Part shown: piece by piece, positions 11,850 to 64,000 of the stretch
How the letters are laid out: every line of letters starts with the position of its first letter
Position numbering within the stretch: the first letter of the stretch is position 1
DNA from: Basidiobolus meristosporus CBS 931.73
Taxonomy: Eukaryota > Basidiobolomycota > Basidiobolomycetes > Basidiobolales > Basidiobolaceae
Reading direction: 5' to 3'
Length of the DNA stretch: 64,000 nt
Assembly: GCA_002104905.1 (NCBI GenBank)
Contig: MCFE01000349.1
Location: 25,113-89,112 of the forward strand
Program-made: the position numbers and the translations under genes
The notes under the pieces: generated by a model
Told to the model about the DNA's origin: nothing
What the model saw: the letters and a program-made list of their open reading frames with translations, nothing else
The model's database searches: none

Positions 11850-14800
11850 TCATAGAACACATAACAGAGCAGAAGCAGAAGCAGAAGTAGACGATCATAG
11901 ATTCATCATAACGGCATAGAGCCACTTTATTGGAATTCTATTGATGCATAACGACGGAGCGGCATTCTCGAACTGTACATTCCTCGTAATATTGTTGTAT
12001 GGTCCATGATAGATATCCCCTAGATTAATCGTGTACAGCATTACACTTATTAGTGAAAGCGAAGGAGACAGCCTTCCCTTCTTCTCTTTTGAAATGTAAA
12101 TAAATTCCCTGCCTCAGTCCATACATCTATCACATCGGTCAGCTGCACGCTTATCTCTCGAGGGGCAAGCCATCCCCGTACACAGACGCAGCGAGGGGAA
12201 ATTCTAGACGGGACGCCTCCAGAAGAGAAAATTCGATTTGCAGATGAATTTCCTTTTCACTCATCGTAGCCCCTGCTATGATGTCCCAGCGGTAAGGAAT
12301 TAGGCGAGGGAATGACGGGGCCATCTGTCCCAGAAATTCTCATACAATCAGCGGAGCATCCGATATCCAGCCAACTCCCAATGAAAATCATGTGAAACCA
12401 GGAACCAGCCCAAATAGGAATCCAGTAGAAGCTAATGTGAAAGGATTAGTAACTGTCCCAGCAGGGCTAGGGTTAGGGTTAGGGTTGGCCAGGGCATGAT
12501 TGGTTTAATAACAGGCACTACATTGATGCCAGACTCGCGTGTCGATAGTGTCGGAGTCCCACCGCGATTGGTGGGATTTGGCTGGCCGAACATTTCGATT
12601 ATCAAGCTTTTAAGATCAAGTTAGTTTGGTTTTAATGGGTTGCTGCATTTAGCAGGATTCGCTTAATAATTTAATAATCCACCGATGATTTGGCTGTCTG
12701 GCTGGAATTTCCTAATAACAACAAATCATCGGCGAATGCTGGCAAGGAAAAAAATTGAGTCATGCGTCTGGGCGTCCCAATTTGGAGTGACAATACCAAA
12801 GCGTCTGACATGGAAGTTAATAACCTCGGAGATCGACTTAATAAATGGCCGCGCCCAGGAAACCAATCACCGCCCGAAGGACTCAATGACCCAACTATTC
12901 TTTTCCATCCAACCGACCAATCGCGCCCTCCTTGTGAACCGTAACAAATAACCCTAAATCCAGTGCGGATCCGTATCTTGTGTTGCTGCGTGTTTCGCCA
13001 GATCAGGCTTGTGAAACAGCCGGATTTATTAAGTAATTTCATTTGGTTAGACACGATGTTGACTTAATAATGGCTGATGGAGCCAGAGGTGTGTAATGAG
13101 GGAGGTTTTTACGATTTGCATGGTGTTTGGCAGGGCTTCGGACGGAGGGGACGAGGCGTTGGAATAACCTAGGTGGTGCGGATTCCATAACTGTCAAGAT
13201 ATACCTAGACATCATCGATTGCCCCCAATTGGTGGAGTTCTATTTGAAACCCTGTGCATGCATCAAACCATTGCTGTGGATGTGGCGACTTGTATTATCA
13301 GGACGGTGGGTGAGAGAATGCAAAAGGGGCTCTGCGCACATAATGGATTACTGGAATTGTTGTTGCTATGGCTATGACTCGGTTCACTGTTACTATCAGC
13401 TATTATCAGCTGAAATCTAATGCACCTAGTAGATTAGGCGCTTGGACGTTACAACCGAATGCTTGTTAGTATGTTGATCATGTTATAGGAAAAGGCATTG
13501 GTAGATAAGCAAAAGTAGACATTCTGGCCTCTTTGGGTGAGTGCTAGAATTCTTTTCTATTTGTTGTGTAAATATTGCAATCGTCATCCCCAATGGCCAT
13601 TTTCAACATTGTCCTGTTATCCGACTTGCAACATTACATCACCCGCATGCTACATAGGGCATCTCTTTGTATTATTGATGCAACTGACTCACAGCGATGA
13701 GAACCACCATAAATGACGCTGCAGTGAGGTATTTCTGTGACGAATTGATTGCATTATATGAAAGAAGCGAAGATATTAAGAGTTGAGTTAGTGGAAGTAC
13801 GAGCTGTTGGAGGGAAGTTGTTTAACACCTTTGTTCTTGCGGATCATTGGGGCATTCTCTTTCCCTTGAATTAACAGGGCAGTAGAGTAGAAGCGCGTAG
13901 CCATTCATCCTCTATAGTCTTCCATTGGTCATTTACCGATATGTTACGGCTGAACTTTAAACCTATTAATGTAAATAGTTCCTGAACCACGTATACAATG
14001 TTCACCACGATGAGTCAAATTGATATTCATATAAATTTCACACTTGCAATTTGCTTACTGCGGCAAAGCATCCCCTTTCAAATACACTAAACATACTGAT
14101 CGTGCAAAAAGGTGAACTTTGTTTCTTCGAGCTCTCTGTGTATAGTCAAAACTTTTATTTGTTGTAAACGATTGATTGGTCTCCAAACTGCCCATATACT
14201 ATGATTTAACACTTGGAGATCATAGATCAAATTGAAGCAAAAGCAAGGAAAACAATTGTCAATGTATTCAGAGAACACTTCAACTAATGCTTTAACTTTC
14301 ACTTTACCTGCTGGTGCTAGAAAGTAGCAAGAATTGACTGATTGCTAACGATTTAGAGTTCTCGGAGGTGATCTTTGCCATGAATGATGAGTATAGTATA
14401 ACTATTCATGTATTTCGATAGAGTACTTGTTCTCTATGAGACTAACCAGATCACTAGTTCTTTGGAGTTATGTATATACTAGAAGCAACCATGTGGTACT
14501 AAAAATTGCACTGAGCTTCCTAGAACCTTACCCAGAATATACATGGCGATGATTTTATGAAGCCAACCCATATATTAATCTATACATGCAAGTCACACTC
14601 TGTCCAGTTGCAGTCCCACACTACACTTAACAATATTCACTTAATAGTCTGTTTAGGACCTAGTTACTTAGTATCGTATATGTGGCGCTCTCTTAGCTAT
14701 GATATCAGTTATATTCTTAGTAGTTACAAAGGATATACACCAATTCCAGGAAATGATGAATACACTGGAATTTCTCAAAATTTTCAAACCCCTTGAAAAC

Positions 14801-55431: not shown

Positions 55432-57248
55432 CTCCCACTCAGCTAAATGTTCATACTGACTAGTCCTAATTTTGACCTAAGATATTCAAACTTGTCTCTA
55501 GCTAATGGTTTGGTAAATATGTCTGCAATCATTTCATCTGTAGGACAGTAAGCTAGGCTAACTAAGTTATTCTCTATAGCTTCACGTATGAAATGATGTC
55601 TAATATCTAAGTGCTTGGTTCTAGCATGAAAAGTTGGATTTCTACCTAATTGTATACATCCTTGATTATCTTGAAATAAAGTAATAGGCGTTTTTTGACA
55701 TAGGCCTAAATCTGTAAAGAGTTTTCTTAACCACATTGCTTCTTTTGTAGCTTCACAGGCTGCCATATACTCTGCCTCTGTAGTAGAAAGTGCTATGGTT
55801 GGTTGCTTTCTTGAATTCCATGAAATTGCTCCTTTACAGTAAAGAAAGGTGTATCCTGTGGTGGATCTTCTGTCTTCCAAATTTTGTCCCCAATCAGCAT
55901 CAGAGTATCCCACAAGATCCTGTTCTGAATCCTTATAAGTGTATCTAAAGCAGATATCAGCAGTTCCTTTTAGGTATCTAAAAATCTGCTTAAATGCTGC
56001 AATATGATCAGATCCATAGTTCTGATTATGTTAGCTGACAACTCCCACTGAATATGAGATATCTGGACGTGTTCCAAGCATGATATACATCAGACTGCCG
56101 ACCTTAGATTGATAAGGAAAGTCAGGGCTTTCAGATGGCACCAAGCTCTCTTGATTTGGTTGAGTTTTGACCAAGTTAAGGTTTGTCTCCATTGGGGTAG
56201 CTGCCAGTTTACAGTCTTCCATTTGGTACTTCTTTAGTATATCTTGAATATACTTGGATTGGCTTAGGGTAAGAGTCTGGGTACTTTTGTCTATGGAGAA
56301 CTTAATCCCCAAGTAGTAACTAAGTTCTCCTAAATCAGACATCTTGAACTCCTTAGATAGGCTGGATTTAGTTTCTTCCAATGTTTCTAGGTTATTGGCG
56401 GCTATAATAAGATCATCCACATATAGAGCTTATAGAACTGAATTTGCTCTATCTGGCTTATAGTATATACTATAGTCAGCATTACTTTTTTTGAAACTCA
56501 AGGATTCCAAATAAGAATCTATCTTGCAATTCCAGGCTCTTGGTGATTGTTTGAGACCATATAGTGACTTTTTAAGCTTGCAGACCAAATGGGGGTTATC
56601 TTGGTCAACAAACCCATCAGGCTGGTCCATATACATGTCCTCATCAAGTTCTCCATTCAAAAATGCAGTTTTTACATCCATTTGATGAATAAAAAACTTA
56701 TATTTGGCTGCAATAGCCAATATTAATCTGATGGAATTAAACTTGGCTCCCGGTGCAAAGGTCTCAGTATAGTCAAGTCCTTTTGTTTGAGAGTATCCAT
56801 TGGCTACAAGTCTTGCTTTGTATCTTTCAATTGTACCATGAGCCTTGTATTTTGTCTTGAAGACCCATCTGCATCCAATTGATTTTTGGTTGATTGGTAA
56901 TTTGACCAAGTCCCAAGTTTGATTTTCCATCAGTGCCTGATATTCCTCAGTCATTGCAGATCTCCAAAACTTTGTCTGAGGGCTATTTAGGGCCTCTTTT
57001 ACAGTCTGGGGTTCATCAATATGGACTGAATAGGCATAGGCTCAGTTTGTACCCTCATTGATATAGTAATTTGGGCTATTTCTTGTTTGATTTGATCTCC
57101 GGGCATTTGATACTGGAATGATCACTTCTGGGATATTCCTGGGCACTAATTCTGGCTGAACCATGGTTGTAGAGTCCTCTGGAGTGAAAAAATTTTCATT
57201 GTTTTGCTCTGATTCAATCCTGACAATTGGTGGACTTGAGATCAAATT

Positions 57249-57597
57249 TGTTGTAAAAATTTGTATTTCCACCTAAATATTGACCTAACTTAGTCACTTA
57301 GATCATCACCTTCAAATCCTAGAGAATATTGACCAAATTCCTTGTTGGGATTTACTTAGAATATTTTCACCAAAATACCAGGTACCCAGAACATGAAAAT
57401 TCTCAAAGATGTCCAAACAGCCTCAAACTTTGCACACATGTTCTTGGGACCTTCCTTAACCTATTCTACGTGTTTGTAATGCCAAGACCAGGTAAAAGTA
57501 TAAATACTACTTTTACATTCAATAAATCATCAAGTGAAAACCACATAATCTACTTGTTCTCCCCATCATTTCCAATATCTCCAAGACTCTTGCAACA
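57249..57597 (+). mobile_element. Solo copia LTR with AAATT target duplication
   Basis: 349 bp, TG...CA ends, AAATT at 57244-57248 and 57598-57602. Its promoter core is a TATAAATA flanked by a perfect 9-bp inverted repeat GTAAAAGTA (57492-57500) / TACTTTTAC (57508-57516). Confidence 0.95.
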
Positions 57598-58849
57598 AAA
57601 TTTTTATCATCATCTGATGTCATTTTTATGAGAATTTTGAATTTTCATCAAACAACACATCCCTGCACTTGATAAGCTTCTTTGCTTTGGTATTGTAGAG
57701 TCTGTATGCCTTACTCTCATTGCAGTAGTCCAAAAATATGCATTTTAAACTTTTTGGCTCAAATTTTGACTGATATCCGGGCAGTTTTTTGGCATATGCT
57801 GTACACCCAAATATTCTTAGATGTTCTGCACTTGGTCTGTATCCATACCATGCTTCAAATGGAGTAGAATCACAAAGTATTCTGTTATAACTCCTATTTT
57901 TAAGATATACAGCAGTGGCAACTGATTCCTCCCAAAAATCATAGGATAATTTTTGATCATGGATCATAGATCTTGCCATATCAATTATTGATCTGTTAGC
58001 TTGTTCTGCTACTCCATTTTGCTGTGGGGAGTATGGTGCAGTAGTCTCTTGCTTTATCCCATGAATTTTGCAGAAGTGGATGAAGAGTTTTGAGGTATAT
58101 TCTCCACCATTGTCAGAGTGTATTTTCTTGATTTTTTCACCAGTTTCTCTCTCTACCATGGCTTTAAACTCCCTGAACTTAGACAGAGCTTCTTCCTTTC
58201 TCTCCATAAAGTAGACCCATGTGTATCTTGTATAATCATCAATAAAAGTGATTAAATACTTGATCCTGCCTAAGGATAAATTTTGCATAGGTCCACACAG
58301 ATCTGAGTGAATTAGATCAAATTTTTCTTAGTTTTGATTAACCCAGAGCTCTTGAACGGTTGTCTGGCTTGTTTCCCATATATGCAGGCTTCACAGTGCT
58401 CCAGATTAGCTGGGGGATCAATTTTCACTCCAGAAATTAGCTGATCTTTGATCATTTTGCGCAAATAATCAAAATTGATGTGCCCAAATCTCCTGTGCCA
58501 AAGCATTGGTGTTTCTTCATTTAAGTTACTTATATTGGCTTCCAGATATGATGGAATATAAGTCAACTTATATAGATTCTGATCTCTGATGCCCGAAGCA
58601 ATATGAGCACCATTTGGATCAGTGATCCTGCGTCCAGAATTGTCAAAACTGAAACTGAGTCCTTCTGCTGTGGCCTTGCTTACAGAGAGTAGGTTCTTGG
58701 CTATTTCTGGTACATAGAGTACTTCTTTAAAGGTCAGTGTATGGCTTCCCTCACTGCTTCTAAGGTTTACTTGGATGGTTCCTTCTCCCACTGCATCAAG
58801 TGTTCTATTGTCACCCATGAAAACCTTCTTAATTGGAATTTCTTGATAT

Positions 58850-59198
58850 TGTTGAAAAAATTCGTAATTCCACCTAAATATTCACCTAACTTAGTCACTT
58901 ACATCATCACCTTCAAATCCTAGAGAATACTGACCAAATTCCTTGTTGGGATTTACTTAGAATATTTTCACCAAAATACCAGGTACCCAGAACATGAAAA
59001 TTCTCAAAGATGTCCAAACAGCCACAAACTTTGCACACATGTTCTTGGGACCTTCCTTAACCTACTCTATGTGTTTGTAATGCCAAGACCAGGTAAAAGT
59101 ATAAATACTACTTTTACATTCAGTAAATCATTAAGTGAAAACCACATAATCTACTTGTTCTCCAAATCACTTCCAATATCTCCAAGACTCTTACAACA
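58850..59198 (+). mobile_element. Solo copia LTR with GATAT target duplication
   Basis: 349 bp, TGTTGAAAAAATTCG to CTCTTACAACA, with GATAT at 58845-58849 and 59199-59203. It interrupts the gag/protease region of element C. Confidence 0.95.
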
Positions 59199-59532
59199 GA
59201 TATTGGGTAAAAAGTTCTTTTTGGTGTGTAAAGTGTTGAGAAGCTCCAGAGTCAATATACCACGTCTGAGAATCCTTGTTTGTGGTCATATTTAGTGCAG
59301 ATATGAATAGTCTATCTTCAGTTGTTGCAGCATTTCCATATTCAGGCTTCTTTTGCTGATAATCTCTCTTTTTGAGACACCGGTCTGATGTGTGTCCTTT
59401 CCTTTTGCAGTAGTTGCAAAATAGGTTGCTGTTGCCTTTGTAGGGTCTTAGGGGGAGGAAAGTCACCAAGTGGTGAAATCTTTATTTACTTATGACAAGT
59501 ATCTAAAGAAGCCAAGTTAATCTGAAGTTATT

Positions 59533-59651
59533 CCTAGAAAGCTAGGTCTGAGAGATATCTTCCTGGTAAGCCAGGTCTGAGAGTTGAGAAGCTGAGTGGT
59601 ACTATATTTCCTAGTTAGCTAGGTCTGAGAGAGGTTTCCTGGAAAGCCAGG
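59533..59651 (-). repeat. Four-hairpin array in SINE copy 1
   Basis: Hairpins at 59533-59546, 59562-59575, 59610-59623 and 59638-59651. Plus-strand stems are CCTAG/CTAGG, CCTGG/CCAGG, CCTAG/CTAGG and CCTGG/CCAGG around 4-base loops, each followed by a CTGAGA block. The array looks like a 77-bp duplication of a two-hairpin unit. Confidence 0.85.
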
Positions 59652-59909
59652 CCTGAGAAGTGAGAATCTGAATATATCTGAGCTAAGTTATACTGGTTTG
59701 CGGTAGCTGAATTGTGGCCGGAATGGCCAGTAGACTGGGGGAACTGAGATGAATTTCTGGGCGATCACTGGCCAAATTTACTAGGCAAATCTGGCCAATT
59801 AGCATTTCAAGGATTTCAGCCAATCAGAGCCTTTACTTTGCCCAATGGTTGATCAAGCCATCTCCCAATGAGCACACATCAATTTATTAATCAAATTTTG
59901 TTGGATCCA

Positions 59910-59963
59910 GGATTTAAACCCACAACCATGGGTATGGAAGGGTTAGGGATAACCACAAGGCTA
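59910..59963 (-). promoter_or_regulatory. Internal pol III promoter of SINE copy 1 (boxes A and B)
   Basis: Box A TAGCCTTGTGG fits TRGYNNARNNG with one mismatch; box B GGTTTAAATCC fits GGTTCRANNCC with one mismatch. The spacing matches a tRNA gene. The rest of the tRNA fold is degenerate. Confidence 0.7.
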
Positions 59964-59982
59964 AGTGTTCTTGGTTGGGTTA

Positions 59983-62900
59983 GGGGGGAGACAGTCACCA
60001 ACAGGTGAAATCTTTATTTCAGTTGAAACAAAGAAGCCAGCGCTACTGTTGTAGCTTTGATATAAGAGTGTGTAGCTGAGGGGAATTTGTAGGTAAGTTA
60101 ATAAGAAGTGATGATAGTTCTTCAGTGCTCAAGACACTGTTCAGTGGGAAGGGGGGTAGCAAGAGAGGTAAGAATGACTTGTGAACAACATTAATGAGGG
60201 GAATGTGATAAGGATTGATATTCATCATAAAGGGAGTGTGCTGCTGCAGATATTGCTGCCAAAGGTCTGTCAAGTACTTCAGGTAGGCCAGTTTGGGTTT
60301 TTCTGACTGCAGAATATAGTGAGCAAACTTCTTGACTTCAGGATCTCCAAGTATAGTTCTCCAGCAGGAGTCAGGTGTAGTGTGGTGTGTTCTCTTCCAG
60401 GCCTTAATCAGTGGGTTGTTGCAGTTGTGAAGTCTGAGGTATAATCTGGTTCTAAGGTAGAGAAGTCTGATCTTATAGGGCATAAACCCAAAAGCACCAA
60501 GAATAGCATGTCTGTAGGGGCATTCAGGCAAATGAGGCACCAAGGAGGTAATGCACTATACTGCAAACTTGTCAAGCTTAGTGCAGTCTCTAGAAGTAAG
60601 AGAGAGAAGTGGTAAGCCAAATTCCAGGACAGGGAAGACAAACTGCTTGAGTAGAAGGAGGCAGCTGGGAGCTGAAGTTGTAGGAGGAGTAACAGCCAGT
60701 AGCTTGTGGAGTGCCTGTCTTGCCAGGATAATTCTCTTCTTCAGGTGTGCTCCAGAGTCTAGTCCAGTAGGAAGGAAAGGAAAGCCAAGATATGTAGCAG
60801 AAACCTGAGCAGGTAGAGTGGAGTTCTCCAAGTTGATGGGAGAGCCCAAAGGTACTGTCTTTGCAATGGAAAGCTGGAGATTATTCTTCTGCAGATACTG
60901 GTGGATGGTCTGGGAGTCTTGTTGCACATTGGAGGAGGATAATCTGATGTCATCAGCAAAGAGAGTAACCAGGCAGTCAGCTGAGAGTCTTGGGAAATCA
61001 TTCAGAAAGATGGCAAACAGTATAGGACCAAGCACAGAGCCTTGAACCACTCCATTAGGAACTGAGAACACAGCTGATTGCTCACTTGAGTGCAGAATGC
61101 TTGCTTGTGGATCCAGAAACAGAGACCTGACAAGGAGGGTGAGAGAGGTACTGGAGAAGCATTGCAACTTGGACCAAAGCAGATTTCTGTCAACTGAATC
61201 AAAGGCCTTAGTAATATCAAACAGAACTGAGGGATACTTGCACTGGAGAGAGTGATCTTGGCTAAGTATGACTGCATATTCCAAGGAGAGGCCAGGAACA
61301 AAGCCAAACTGTGCAGGATGAAACTTGAGGGAGTCAGAGTAGAGCTCCTGAGCAAGCAGAAGCTCAAACACCTTTCTGCAGGTAGGCAGCAGAGATATTG
61401 GCCTGTAGGAGCTAGGATCCAGGTGCTTTCCTTTACCCTTGTACAGTGGCAGAACATTTGCAAAGGACCATTCCTCAGGAGTAGAAAGCTGGGCTGAGCA
61501 TTGCTGAAACAGTGGAAGCAGAAGTGCAGACATGGCCTTGGTACTAGTCTTCAGAAGCTCATAAGAGATTGTGTCCACACCTGGAGCAGTAGAGTTGGGA
61601 AGCCTCTTGAGCACATTATGGATTCTCCTTTGATCAAGTGCAAGTGGGATGGGCAGAGTCTTGAAGTCAGGATGAAAGCCAGGAGTTGAGTACTGCTTTG
61701 TAGAGAAGAAGATGTTAGCCAGCTGTTCTGTTGAAGGTAACTTCCTGGAAGAGGGCCTCATTGCCCTGTAGAGTCTTGATACTGTTCTTGTTATAGAGTT
61801 GGAAGATTGCAGAGGCAAAGAACTCATAATATGATCCCAGAGCTGAGTATGCAGAGTGTGGTGAATTGCCTTGGAGTGGTGTATTGCTGTCAGGAGGAGT
61901 TTCTCTGTTTTTGGGTTAGGGAAGCTCAGGTAGCTTTGTTGCAGGGCTGAAACAATGGATTCCCATTTTCTTGAGGTAACAGCAGTAGTCTTGCATGGCA
62001 GTGAGAGGGAGGCAGACACCAGAATCAGATGCTTCACAAAGAGCCAGGCATAGTTGAGATCATCTGGCAGAGAAAGTAGCAAACTGGCAAGCTTCAAGTA
62101 GTTCCCAAAGTCTTTCTTCTGATTCTTGGTAGCTTTGTGGGTGAGCACAGTAAGTTTTGGCAGCTTCTTCTTCACAACTGGTTGCATAGAAAGGGACCAG
62201 GCTGGGTGGTCAGAGGCTCTCAAGGATCCTAGCTCAGCTCCAGAGAATTGCTTAACTTCATTCACAAAGTAGAGGGCAGCAGCAGAACGGCAGATCCAGT
62301 CAACACATCTTTTCTCAGATTGAGCACCTAGTGCTAGCAGGTGGCTTTCTCTCAGGAAGTTCAGTAGGAATGTAGACCTTGGCTTCATTCTTGCAGTCAG
62401 AGTAGTCTTGTTCTCAGGATGGGGAATGTTGAGATCTCCAAGCAAGATAACAGGTGTTGATATAGATTGTTGGTATTGCTGAACCTTCTGGCATATAACT
62501 TGCACTTCCTGAAGGGCAAGACTTGGAGGCAGATAGCAGAGCACCAGACTGATAGTTGGCAACTGGAGAGCAGCACAGTAAGGGGAGTAAAGAGGAACAC
62601 AGAGCTGAGGAGTATTGATGGTAGAAGAGATGAAGCAGATAGAGGAGGTATTCTTTGTTCTAGGAGTAGAAAAGCAATACAGATTAGTCAAAAGTATAGA
62701 GGGTAGCTGGACATCAATCAAACACAGGAGGGAAAATCTTGATAGAAGTCTCTCTAGAGTTGGTCTTGATGGCTGTATGCTGTTGCAGTTAAGCAACAGA
62801 ACTTCAGGTAGTCAGGCAGAGGTTGTAGCTTCTTCAGAGGCAGCATTGACAATGTGACCTGCAGAGTCCCAGAGCTCTTCAAATGGTGCATCACTTAAGT

Positions 62901-63279
62901 CAGCAAGGAGGGAAATGGCATGATTCTTGAGGAAGTATGCCACATCATAGGAGGGGGCTTGTCTCTTGATGACAGCAAAGAAAGACAGAATGGCAACATG
63001 GGCTGGAGGCTTGTTGAACAGTAGAGAGTCAGAGGATTCAGATTCTTCAGGCACTATCTTGAAGTCAGTTTTCAGCCAGTTAAGGTTCTTCTCCACAAAG
63101 GCAACAAATGGGTCAGCAATGTTTTGGTCTAGGATAACCTCCAGAATCTTCCCTTTTCTCCAGGCCAGGTTGACAATTCTTGAGAGCTGAATATTGCATG
63201 CCTTGAGTGCTTTCCTGATGTTGGAAATGGGAGTCCAGGGAACTTGCTTCAAGTACACCACAGTCCAGGTAGAAGCTGG
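59983..63279 (-). mobile_element. LINE-type retrotransposon joined to telomere repeats, 5'-truncated
   Basis: A 3.3-kb non-LTR element on the minus strand. Its 3' end (left) has a very short 3' region with AAATAAAGATTTCACC, a hairpin and a CCCCCCTAACCC junction to SINE copy 1. Its 5' end (right) stops inside coding sequence at 63279, directly at a GGTTAGG-(TTAGGG)n array. So both ends sit on telomere-type sequence. The coding frame carries an apurinic-type endonuclease and a reverse transcriptase. Confidence 0.9.
60043..63279 (-). pseudogene. LINE polyprotein: N-terminal region, APE endonuclease, reverse transcriptase
   Basis: One reading frame of 1,079 codons runs the full length of the element with only two stops: TGA at 62812-62814 and TAG at 60556-60558. 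The first 155 codons (ORF1-like) have no recognised domain. The endonuclease follows: LLNCNSIQ near the start, GDLNIPH and SDHPAWS, corresponding to the Asn/Asp/His catalytic residues of APE enzymes. Reverse transcriptase shows YRPISLLPTCRKVFE, FDITKAFDSVD, GVVQGSVLGPILFAIFLND and FADDIRLSS, so the catalytic Asp pair is intact. The last 170 codons after the TAG hold no zinc knuckle I can see. Truncation plus stops make this copy inactive unless stops are read through. Confidence 0.9.
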
Positions 63280-63306
63280 TTAGGAATAGGGTTAGGGTTA
63301 GGGTTA
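63280..63306 (+). repeat. TTAGGG telomere-type repeat array
   Basis: TTAGGAATAGGG followed by three perfect TTAGGG units, running into the 3' end of SINE copy 2. The G-rich strand is the plus strand, which is the orientation of a right-hand chromosome end. Confidence 0.92.
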
Positions 63307-63831
63307 GGGGGGAGGAAAGTCACCAAGTGGTGAAATCTTTATTTACTTATGACAAGTATCTAAAGAAGCCAAGTTAATCTGAAGTAATTCCTAGAAAGCT
63401 AGGTCTGAGAGATATCTTCCTGGTAAGCCAGGTCTGAGAGTTGAGAAGCTGAGTGGTACTATATTTCCTAGTTAGCTAGGTCTGAGAGAGGTTTCCTGGA
63501 AAGCCAGGCCTGAGAAGTGAGAATCTGAGTATATCTGAGGTGAGTTGTACTGATTTGCGGTAGCTTGTTTGTGGCCAGAATGGCCAGTAGACTGGGGGAA
63601 CTGAGGGGTATTTCTGGGCGATCACTGGCCAAATTTACTAGGCAAATTTGACCAATTAGCATTTCAAGGATTTCAGCCAATCAGAGCCTTTACTTTGCCC
63701 AATGGTTGATCAAGCCATCTCCCAATGAGCACACATCAATTTATTGATCAAATTTTGTTGGATCCAGGATTTGAACCCACAACCATGGGTATGGAAGGGT
63801 TAGGGATAACCACAAGGCTAAGTGTTCTTGG
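63307..63831 (-). mobile_element. tRNA-derived SINE, copy 2 (525 bp)
   Basis: Same structure and same length as copy 1, with only scattered substitutions. Box B is perfect (GGTTCAAATCC at 63767-63777) and box A lies at 63810-63820. Four hairpins at 63390-63403, 63419-63432, 63467-63480 and 63495-63508. Its 3' end joins the TTAGGG array and its 5' end joins the tail of the next copy at TTAGGGGGA. Confidence 0.87.
63767..63820 (-). promoter_or_regulatory. Internal pol III promoter of SINE copy 2
   Basis: Box A TAGCCTTGTGG at 63810-63820 and a box B matching the consensus exactly at 63767-63777. Confidence 0.75.
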
Positions 63832-63911
63832 TTAGGGGGAGGGAAAGTCACCAAGTTGGTGAAATCTTTATTTGAGGGTTAGGGGGAGGAAAGTCACCAA
63901 GTGGTGAAATC
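63832..63911 (-). mobile_element. Two tail-only SINE/LINE copies
   Basis: Copy at 63832-63874 (TTAGGGGGAGGGAAAG to CTTTATTTGA) and copy at 63879-63911 (TTAGGGGGAGGAAAG to GAAATC). Each holds only the last 35-43 bp of the element, from the terminal hairpin on. Severe 5' truncation of this kind is typical of aborted reverse transcription. Confidence 0.8.
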
Positions 63912-64000
63912 TTAGGGGGAGGAAAGTCACCAAGTGATGAAATCTTTATTTACTTATGACAAGTATCTAAAGAAGCCAAGTTAATCTGAAGTTATTCCTA
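63912..64000 (-). mobile_element. SINE copy 3, running off the window
   Basis: Starts TTAGGGGGAGGAAAG and matches the SINE 3' part up to the last base. One base of the terminal stem is changed (GATGA for GGTGA). The rest lies beyond 64000. Confidence 0.85.

Follow-up and report, generated by a model that had tools for sequence, protein, structure and literature searches.

At the right-hand end of the DNA studied here, a stretch of 64,000 nucleotides from the fungus Basidiobolus meristosporus CBS 931.73 (the window), lies a chain of long and short interspersed elements (LINEs and SINEs) whose 3' ends all adjoin a telomere motif. The window is C590:25113-89112, and since contig C590 is 89,112 bp long, the right end of the window is also the end of the contig. 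The assembly comprises 89.0 Mb in 1,311 contigs, and the strain was sequenced with PacBio (PMC7466969). An F-box protein encoded in the window matched, apart from itself, only two proteins, both of B. ranarum, at 63% and 28% identity. We read the elements of the last 4.5 kb, all on the minus strand, directly from the sequence, and the repeats were also found computationally. From low to high coordinates they are a full SINE, a 5'-truncated LINE (LINE-A), TTAGGG repeats, a second full SINE, the tail of another LINE (LINE-B), the tail of a SINE and a third SINE (Table 1). The initial annotation had described a minus-strand LINE with at least three SINEs and two tail-only copies, each with its 3' end at a telomere motif, and had placed perfect TTAGGG units at 63,292-63,309. 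That description, including the fungal host, agrees with the sequence after correction: the LINE copy is 5'-truncated and has an in-frame stop in its second open reading frame (ORF2), and the first of the two tail-only copies belongs to LINE-B.

TTAGGGGG(G) adjoins every 3' end between 59,448 and 64,000, and TTAGGGTTAGGG, allowing at most one mismatch, occurs eight times in the window against 0.31 occurrences expected. As a further correction, the most proximal SINE is joined to the body of a severed copia element and not to a telomere array. We looked for the continuation of that element distal to this first junction and did not find it.

Table 1. Features of the telomeric chain at the right end of the window (window coordinates).
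Feature	Position	Strand	Evidence or remark
End of copia element severed at first junction	59441..59447	.	copia zinc-knuckle coding reaches here; uninterrupted relative continues differently
SINE copy 1, full length; 3' end TTAGGGGGAGG at 59,448, 5' end 59,976	59448..59976	-	box A/B at 59,910-59,963
LINE-A, 5'-truncated; tail hairpin at low-coordinate end	59980..63280 (upper end approximate)	-	longer copies elsewhere in assembly
LINE-A ORF2 C-terminal part, 170 residues, split off by in-frame stop	60043..60555	-	stop absent in other copies
LINE-A ORF2, APE-like endonuclease and reverse transcriptase, 751 residues	60556..62811	-	RVT_1 E=4.3e-25; endonuclease motifs; weak Pfam endonuclease match below cut-off
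LINE-A ORF1 C-terminal part, open frame of 155 residues	62812..63279	-	reading frame
Telomeric repeats, one imperfect, at truncated 5' end of LINE-A	63281..63303	+	repeat search
SINE copy 2, full length	63304..63833	-	box A/B at 63,767-63,820
LINE-B tail-only copy, 5'-truncated after ~40 nt	63832..63875	-	LINE-B loop sequence
SINE tail-only copy, 33 nt	63879..63911	-	sequence comparison
SINE copy 3, 3' part only, leaves contig end	63912..64000	-	sequence at contig end

All 20 other sampled copies of LINE-A extend past the end of the window copy, 18 of them over the entire 270 nt compared. One reaches ~1.3 kb further, and the in-frame stop is absent from the copies at loci L028, L032 and L034. 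In LINE-A an ORF1 with a Cys-rich motif lies upstream of ORF2. LINE-A and LINE-B both encode an APE-like endonuclease and a reverse transcriptase (RT), and are 47-48% identical over 645 residues. The endonuclease motifs N, GDxN, VDW and SDH are kept, with catalytic roles that we assume from work on L1 and APE, and the RT carries FADD or YADD; the Glu position of the endonuclease is Asp in all four sequences covering it. N-terminal APE motifs together with an (F/Y)xDD RT mark these elements as LINEs of the APE type (L1/Jockey/CR1-like supergroup), as the initial annotation had proposed, with Asp replacing Glu. The Pfam endonuclease profile scored 23.3 bits on the window copy, below the cut-off of 27.4, and 27.5 bits, just above it, on the related protein P0005. 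Searched alone against PDB sequences, the endonuclease gave no match up to E=10; the RT part matched chains of LINE-1 ORF2. Motifs of restriction-like endonucleases (REL; C..C..H..C and RHD/N) were found in none of nine sequences or pieces; the combined expression was also found in none of 30 other LINE proteins, and the search had no positive control. With the motif absent we rejected membership in the REL type (CRE/MoTeR) by endonuclease. The telomeric location with the 5' end outward is CRE/MoTeR-like.

The proteins closest to LINE-A and LINE-B, P0001-P0005, come from short contigs and are 49-85% identical to them, and the next matches drop to ~30%. A tree of 37 rows, which included no named clade references and in which long branches meet, grouped LINE-A, LINE-B and P0001-P0005 together with 100/100 support, and the stem of this clade has a length of 2.38 changes per column. 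It paired LINE-A with P0004 and LINE-B with P0005; if these two proteins come from other species, the split between LINE-A and LINE-B would be old.

Two other features of LINE-A stand on their own. Its 5' region occurs in tandem at ~100-bp spacing, with seven copies at C370:152367-152983 and three each in C388, C516 and C661, resembling the variable number tandem repeats (VNTRs) of FoTeR elements. It also holds an inner TTAGGGTTAGGG (L111, ~1,200-1,214), possibly an internal priming site or a protein-binding site.

Two further families, C and D, carry only ORF1. In six C and five D copies only 115-141 nt separate the end of the ORF1 match from the tail junction, which leaves no space for an RT. 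Intact open frames run to 257 residues in C (L020) and 285 residues in D (L028, L038), and the two ORF1s are 41% identical. Between the two D copies 35 changes are synonymous and 25 non-synonymous (pN/pS, the ratio of the proportions of non-synonymous and synonymous change, 0.21), and five of the six C pairs have pN/pS of 0.18-0.40, where the L111 frame contains some codons of a neighbouring element. These ratios show the pattern of purifying selection on the predicted ORF1 of C and D. An ORF1, no RT before the 3' tail and coding sequence under apparent selection are HeT-A-like features; a lack of telomerase in the host is not indicated, since the assembly encodes a predicted TERT domain.

The SINE is ~530 bp long and has box A and box B of RNA polymerase III promoters near its 5' end. 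A search for the two boxes gave two matches in the window, both in SINEs, and none in 100 shuffles. The initial annotation had called it a tRNA-SINE. The box motifs support a part of that description, but ARAGORN predicted no tRNA gene in this stretch and Rfam gave no tRNA match at E<=10, and we rejected the tRNA identity. Inside the SINE, GGGTTAGGG (window 63,797-63,805 and 59,940-59,948) is a possible internal priming or protein-binding site.

What joins these families is the tail. TGGCTTCTTT, AAATAAAGATTTCACC and a UCACC/GGUGA hairpin are common to five example tails, compared at one copy per family and, for the alignment of the B, C and D tails, over the left part only. The stem has 5 bp, with z-scores of -1.96 to -3.90 across families, and the loop differs between them. 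A shared 3' tail with a stem-loop, as in stringent LINE/SINE pairs, is present at this sampling. The SINE does carry a tail in common with the LINE, as had been claimed, and by eye this tail is no closer to that of LINE-A than to that of LINE-B. In place of the single LINE/SINE pair of the initial annotation, at least five families share the tail, namely two LINEs, the two ORF1-only elements and one SINE.

Windows of four TTAGGG units number 7,428 forward and 81 reverse across the assembly, and telomere array starts without a preceding G number 108 forward and 3 reverse, so that telomeres lie mostly at right contig ends. This bias therefore serves as a ruler for the orientation of the elements. 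Exact matches to the tail core of LINE-A and the SINE fall 1,099 times on the plus and 87 times on the minus strand; with TTAGGG just upstream the counts are 1,049:62, some counted twice. Exact matches to the LINE-B and C tails are split 303:36, which brings the total of exact tail matches to 1,525. The exact SINE 5' end (203:10) and the LINE-A 5' end (50:0) lean the same way. A word from the long terminal repeat (LTR) of copia, used as a control, is distributed along contigs and split 742:671. The initial annotation had suggested an assembly-wide search for the tail, and the search bore out its expectation of a bias toward chromosome ends, in a single orientation.

Distances were taken for the first 100 tail places, 77 with known contig size (23 were left out). 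On contigs of known size and at least 80 kb, none of the 28 tails is more than 18.4 kb away from the end toward which it is oriented, whereas only 6 of 26 copia words on the same contigs come within 20 kb of a contig end. For LINE-A, with 47 matches and the best 40 of 780 candidates scored, the distance to the right end is 0.5-7.4 kb for all 21 copies on contigs of known size. The two ends of C424 (312,558 bp) are mirror images, with CCCTAA repeats followed by a SINE on the left and a SINE followed by TTAGGG repeats on the right. At least 12 contigs with telomere arrays are among the matches listed for C1-C114, and 10 of these 12 hold an exact tail match. Terminal TTAGGG arrays, whose size was taken as the distance between their listed start and the end of the contig on the assumption that they are unbroken, span 152-238 bp, with a median of 204 bp (n=20). 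At C880 two pieces scored above cut-off for a TERT RNA-binding domain, and one of them contains a stop, perhaps an intron. The telomere specificity of these elements is very likely real. As a separate estimate, a 204-bp array holds ~31 four-unit windows, and 7,428 windows suggest roughly 240 assembled ends, many for 89 Mb.

The junctions between elements are similar from place to place. We counted 108 tails at 33 loci in all five families, excluding 12 tails from short pieces chosen for other tests. TTA or TA followed by a run of G begins 104 of the 108. The length of the run varies with the family: 5 in the SINE (40/58), 4 in C (9/10) and mostly 6-7 in LINE-A (20/26), the pattern to be expected from C(n)UAA being encoded in the RNA. 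On their proximal side 80 of the 108 tails have no additional TTAGGG unit, 15 have one, 5 have two and 6 have three, and five and six units occur once each. Next to the tails on that side lies a severed LINE, SINE or copia element or some other sequence. To compare cut points with the phase of the telomere repeat we started from 112 tails, set aside 24 next to SINE 5' ends and 20 without a reference, and dropped repeated junctions, leaving 63. At 41 of these, cut point and telomere phase share 1 nt or more (random DNA, 43%), and at 28 they share 2 nt or more (random DNA, 16%). Eleven of the 63 fell outside the -2 to 8 range, ten with extra nucleotides or unclear ends and one at a tandem duplication.

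We saw no target DNA resuming past an added element. Resumption could be evaluated at 51 of 111 tails, and there was none in 47. The four automatic matches (L006, L016, L017 and window 59,979) proved on inspection to be the shared tail of the next element or a tandem duplication. With 47 of the 51 evaluable tails lacking resumption and the other four uninformative, we rejected a dispersed LINE with target duplications; scattered copies with such duplications, which the initial annotation had named as evidence against its proposal, were not seen at the loci open to inspection. The distal side of the elements is telomeric wherever it was inspected, as expected of a capped chromosome tip: TTAGGG directly follows the exact SINE 5' end in 170 of 213 cases, and the 13 SINE 5' ends inspected among the 43 exceptions all have telomeric or tail sequence within ~12 nt.

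These observations suggest that the fungus may repair and extend its chromosome ends by retrotransposons besides telomerase. The balance of probability leans, modestly, to telomere-dedicated non-LTR retroelements, with reverse transcription copying their CCCUAA-ended RNAs onto chromosome ends that have eroded or broken, and with telomerase then re-capping those ends. Priming from the chromosome end, mobilisation of C, D and SINE RNAs in trans by ORF2, and telomerase re-capping are steps that we infer from the sequences, along the following lines. The element RNAs would end in the 5-bp hairpin (UCACC-loop-GGUGA), a short run of C and CUAA or CCCUAA. The RT of LINE-A or LINE-B would recognise the common tail, on its own RNA and also in trans on those of the SINE, C and D, and would extend the 3' end of a chromosome left with few or no TTAGGG repeats. 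The copy would thereby be added outward, with its 5' end distal, and telomerase would re-cap it with ~200 bp of TTAGGG, until later erosion or breakage cut the outer element and a new one was added. More tentatively, and short of an even chance in our view, the fungus would be a telomerase organism with a second, Drosophila-like form of end maintenance, in which APE-type LINEs, ORF1-only HeT-A-like elements and a telomere-specific SINE are copied onto eroded or broken ends, the retroelements capping first and telomerase finishing.

Several observations weigh against attachment to chromosome ends. An APE-type endonuclease with most of its catalytic motifs is retained, and would be superfluous in an element that only attaches to ends. 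The same anatomy could arise if telomerase healed broken ends first, from a seed of 1-4 nt, and elements then inserted into the first units; microhomology in telomere phase appears to fit such healing as well as it fits direct priming. A family-specific run of G would also be expected from a telomeric GGG end annealing to the C-run in a fixed register. Short tracts alone would likewise be no proof of end-attachment, given that those between MoTeR elements start at half a unit. The genome-wide pattern has exceptions as well: two of the 12 telomere-array contigs, C35 and C81, lack an exact tail match, and the reverse share of tails (87/1,186, and 36/339 for LINE-B and C) exceeds that of array starts (3/111). 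Three of the first 100 tails are reverse, two in C80, 1.4 and 18.3 kb from its left end, and one in C27, a contig of 19.9 kb. The junction loci were sampled mainly with a SINE-tail query and are not a random sample, some arrays were enlarged by tandem duplication (L003, L017, and C476 with copies 1,430 bp apart), and one of the six C pairs has a pN/pS of 1.43, on six differences.

An alternative that we consider possible, if rather doubtful, takes the endonuclease at face value: the APE domain would cut telomeric DNA near the base of the array, ordinary target-primed reverse transcription (TPRT) would follow, and the old telomere would stay distal, with truncations arising from later breakage and healing, as proposed for MoTeRs. 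The retained endonuclease motifs speak for it, and so does the microhomology, which telomerase healing explains too. MoTeR chains are similar, with the 5' end outward, tracts from half a unit, and truncated elements healed at seeds of 1-7 nt (PMC7367193), and the authors of the FoTeR study infer TPRT from junctions (PMC12857005). Because MoTeR tracts can be as short as half a unit, we give nicking somewhat more weight, and end-attachment somewhat less, than we otherwise would. Yet uniform insertion into terminal arrays of ~34 units should leave long tracts, where most tails have no extra unit and the maximum is 6. Nicked insertion would have to hit the very first unit most of the time, whereas SART1 requires three or more repeats and kept clear of the first two (PMC7265360); the Asp at the Glu position in every sequence covering it also argues against cutting. 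Recombination could instead have done most of the work, with a few old insertions copied between ends by break-induced replication and unequal exchange while the elements remained passive. Tandem duplications with identical junctions (L003, 1,539 and 2,110) and LINE-A copies 99-100% identical, among the best 40 of 780 candidates, are what such copying would leave. We nevertheless think it improbable, since junction breakpoints vary between places, the ORF1s of C and D appear to be under purifying selection, and five families retain the same kind of tail and the same orientation. The assembly itself might also mislead, in that ordinary dispersed repeats would accumulate at contig ends where assemblies break. 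The assembly is fragmented and many copies are near contig ends, but random repeats at breaks would face both ways. The one-way orientation of the tails against the copia control, the terminal TTAGGG arrays beyond the elements and the mirror symmetry of C424 led us to dismiss an artefact as highly improbable.

In Drosophila, which lacks telomerase repeats, HeT-A, TART and TAHRE form a mixed telomeric chain of ORF1(Gag)-only and RT-coding elements with the 5' end distal. The Basidiobolus chain likewise mixes ORF1-only and RT-coding elements with the 5' end distal, but has terminal TTAGGG arrays and a TERT domain. Drosophila is not known to have a telomeric SINE partner. Elements of the UnaL2/ZfL2 type are dispersed; in Basidiobolus, by contrast, copies cluster at the ends of chromosomes, and the repeat in which they terminate is that of the telomere. 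The likeness lies in the common 3' tail of LINE and SINE, which the eel and zebrafish UnaL2/ZfL2 elements and their SINEs also have. Such pairs define the stringent LINEs, and the ZfL2-2 protein binds its stem-loop (PMC4176376).

Among fungi, MoTeR1 and MoTeR2 of Magnaporthe (Pyricularia) oryzae come nearest: the host has telomerase, the 5' end points toward the chromosome end, and head-to-tail chains are split by TTAGGG tracts. MoTeR2, which lacks an RT and shares terminal sequence with MoTeR1, also resembles the Basidiobolus partners. It is, however, MoTeR1 with the RT region swapped for unrelated sequence, whereas C and D encode an ORF1 under apparent selection. MoTeR1 has a putative restriction-like endonuclease, compared with those of SLACS and CRE1, while ORF2 of the Basidiobolus elements shows APE motifs but none of the REL type. 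MoTeR tracts can be as short as half a unit and can exceed 20 units, against at most 6 extra units in Basidiobolus, and their authors favour insertion and breakage, with healing seeded by 1-7 nt; the accessible portion of that article makes no mention of a SINE partner (PMC7367193). The FoTeRs of Fusarium oxysporum, again non-LTR elements at the telomeres of a fungus, likewise contain VNTRs and form TTAGGG/TAACCC junctions, but have a REL endonuclease and 3 to 8 TAACCC copies on their 3' side, and the word 'SINE' is absent from the main text (PMC12857005). Other non-LTR elements tied to telomeric repeats include TRAS and SART of the silkworm, Tx1_ACar, Zepp and GilM/GilT (PMC10088271). SART1, which needs at least three repeats, inserts inside arrays (PMC7265360), and these systems differ from that of Basidiobolus in host and type. 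In the tree of 37 rows the RTs from Basidiobolus belong to a separate clade with a long stem.

Among the best-ranked open-licence PMC papers, judged by title and opening of the abstract, we found no report of telomeric elements in Basidiobolus, of a telomeric SINE, or of an ORF1-only telomeric element outside Drosophila, the nearest fungal case being MoTeR2, without RT. The combination of features appears to be new, although every ingredient has a precedent. If the proposal holds, telomeric communities of ORF1-only and RT-coding elements arose independently in a deep fungal lineage, beside a telomerase gene, and would represent a stage between telomerase-only and retroelement-only telomeres. 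The upkeep of a SINE and of ORF1-only elements through one common tail would become testable, and the exact tail matches, as natural junctions, allow end-attachment and nicked insertion to be compared by sequencing.

Some minor observations remain. Two copia LTR-like copies, 96% identical, adjoin the chain (window 57,248-57,547 and 58,849-59,148), and CTAGGG(TTAGGG)2 occurs at window 12,467-12,484, in the contig interior and distant from the telomeric chain. At ~4,800 (original orientation) of L033 (C895), a tail-like motif with TTGGGGGGGGGAGAAAAGTCACC gives way, past GTGAAATC, to different repeat sequence and may be a tail that is chimeric or has recombined. In the last 500 bases of L035 (C45), a tandem unit of ~100 bp with TTAGGGGAGAT adjoins the terminal array and may be another short telomeric element.

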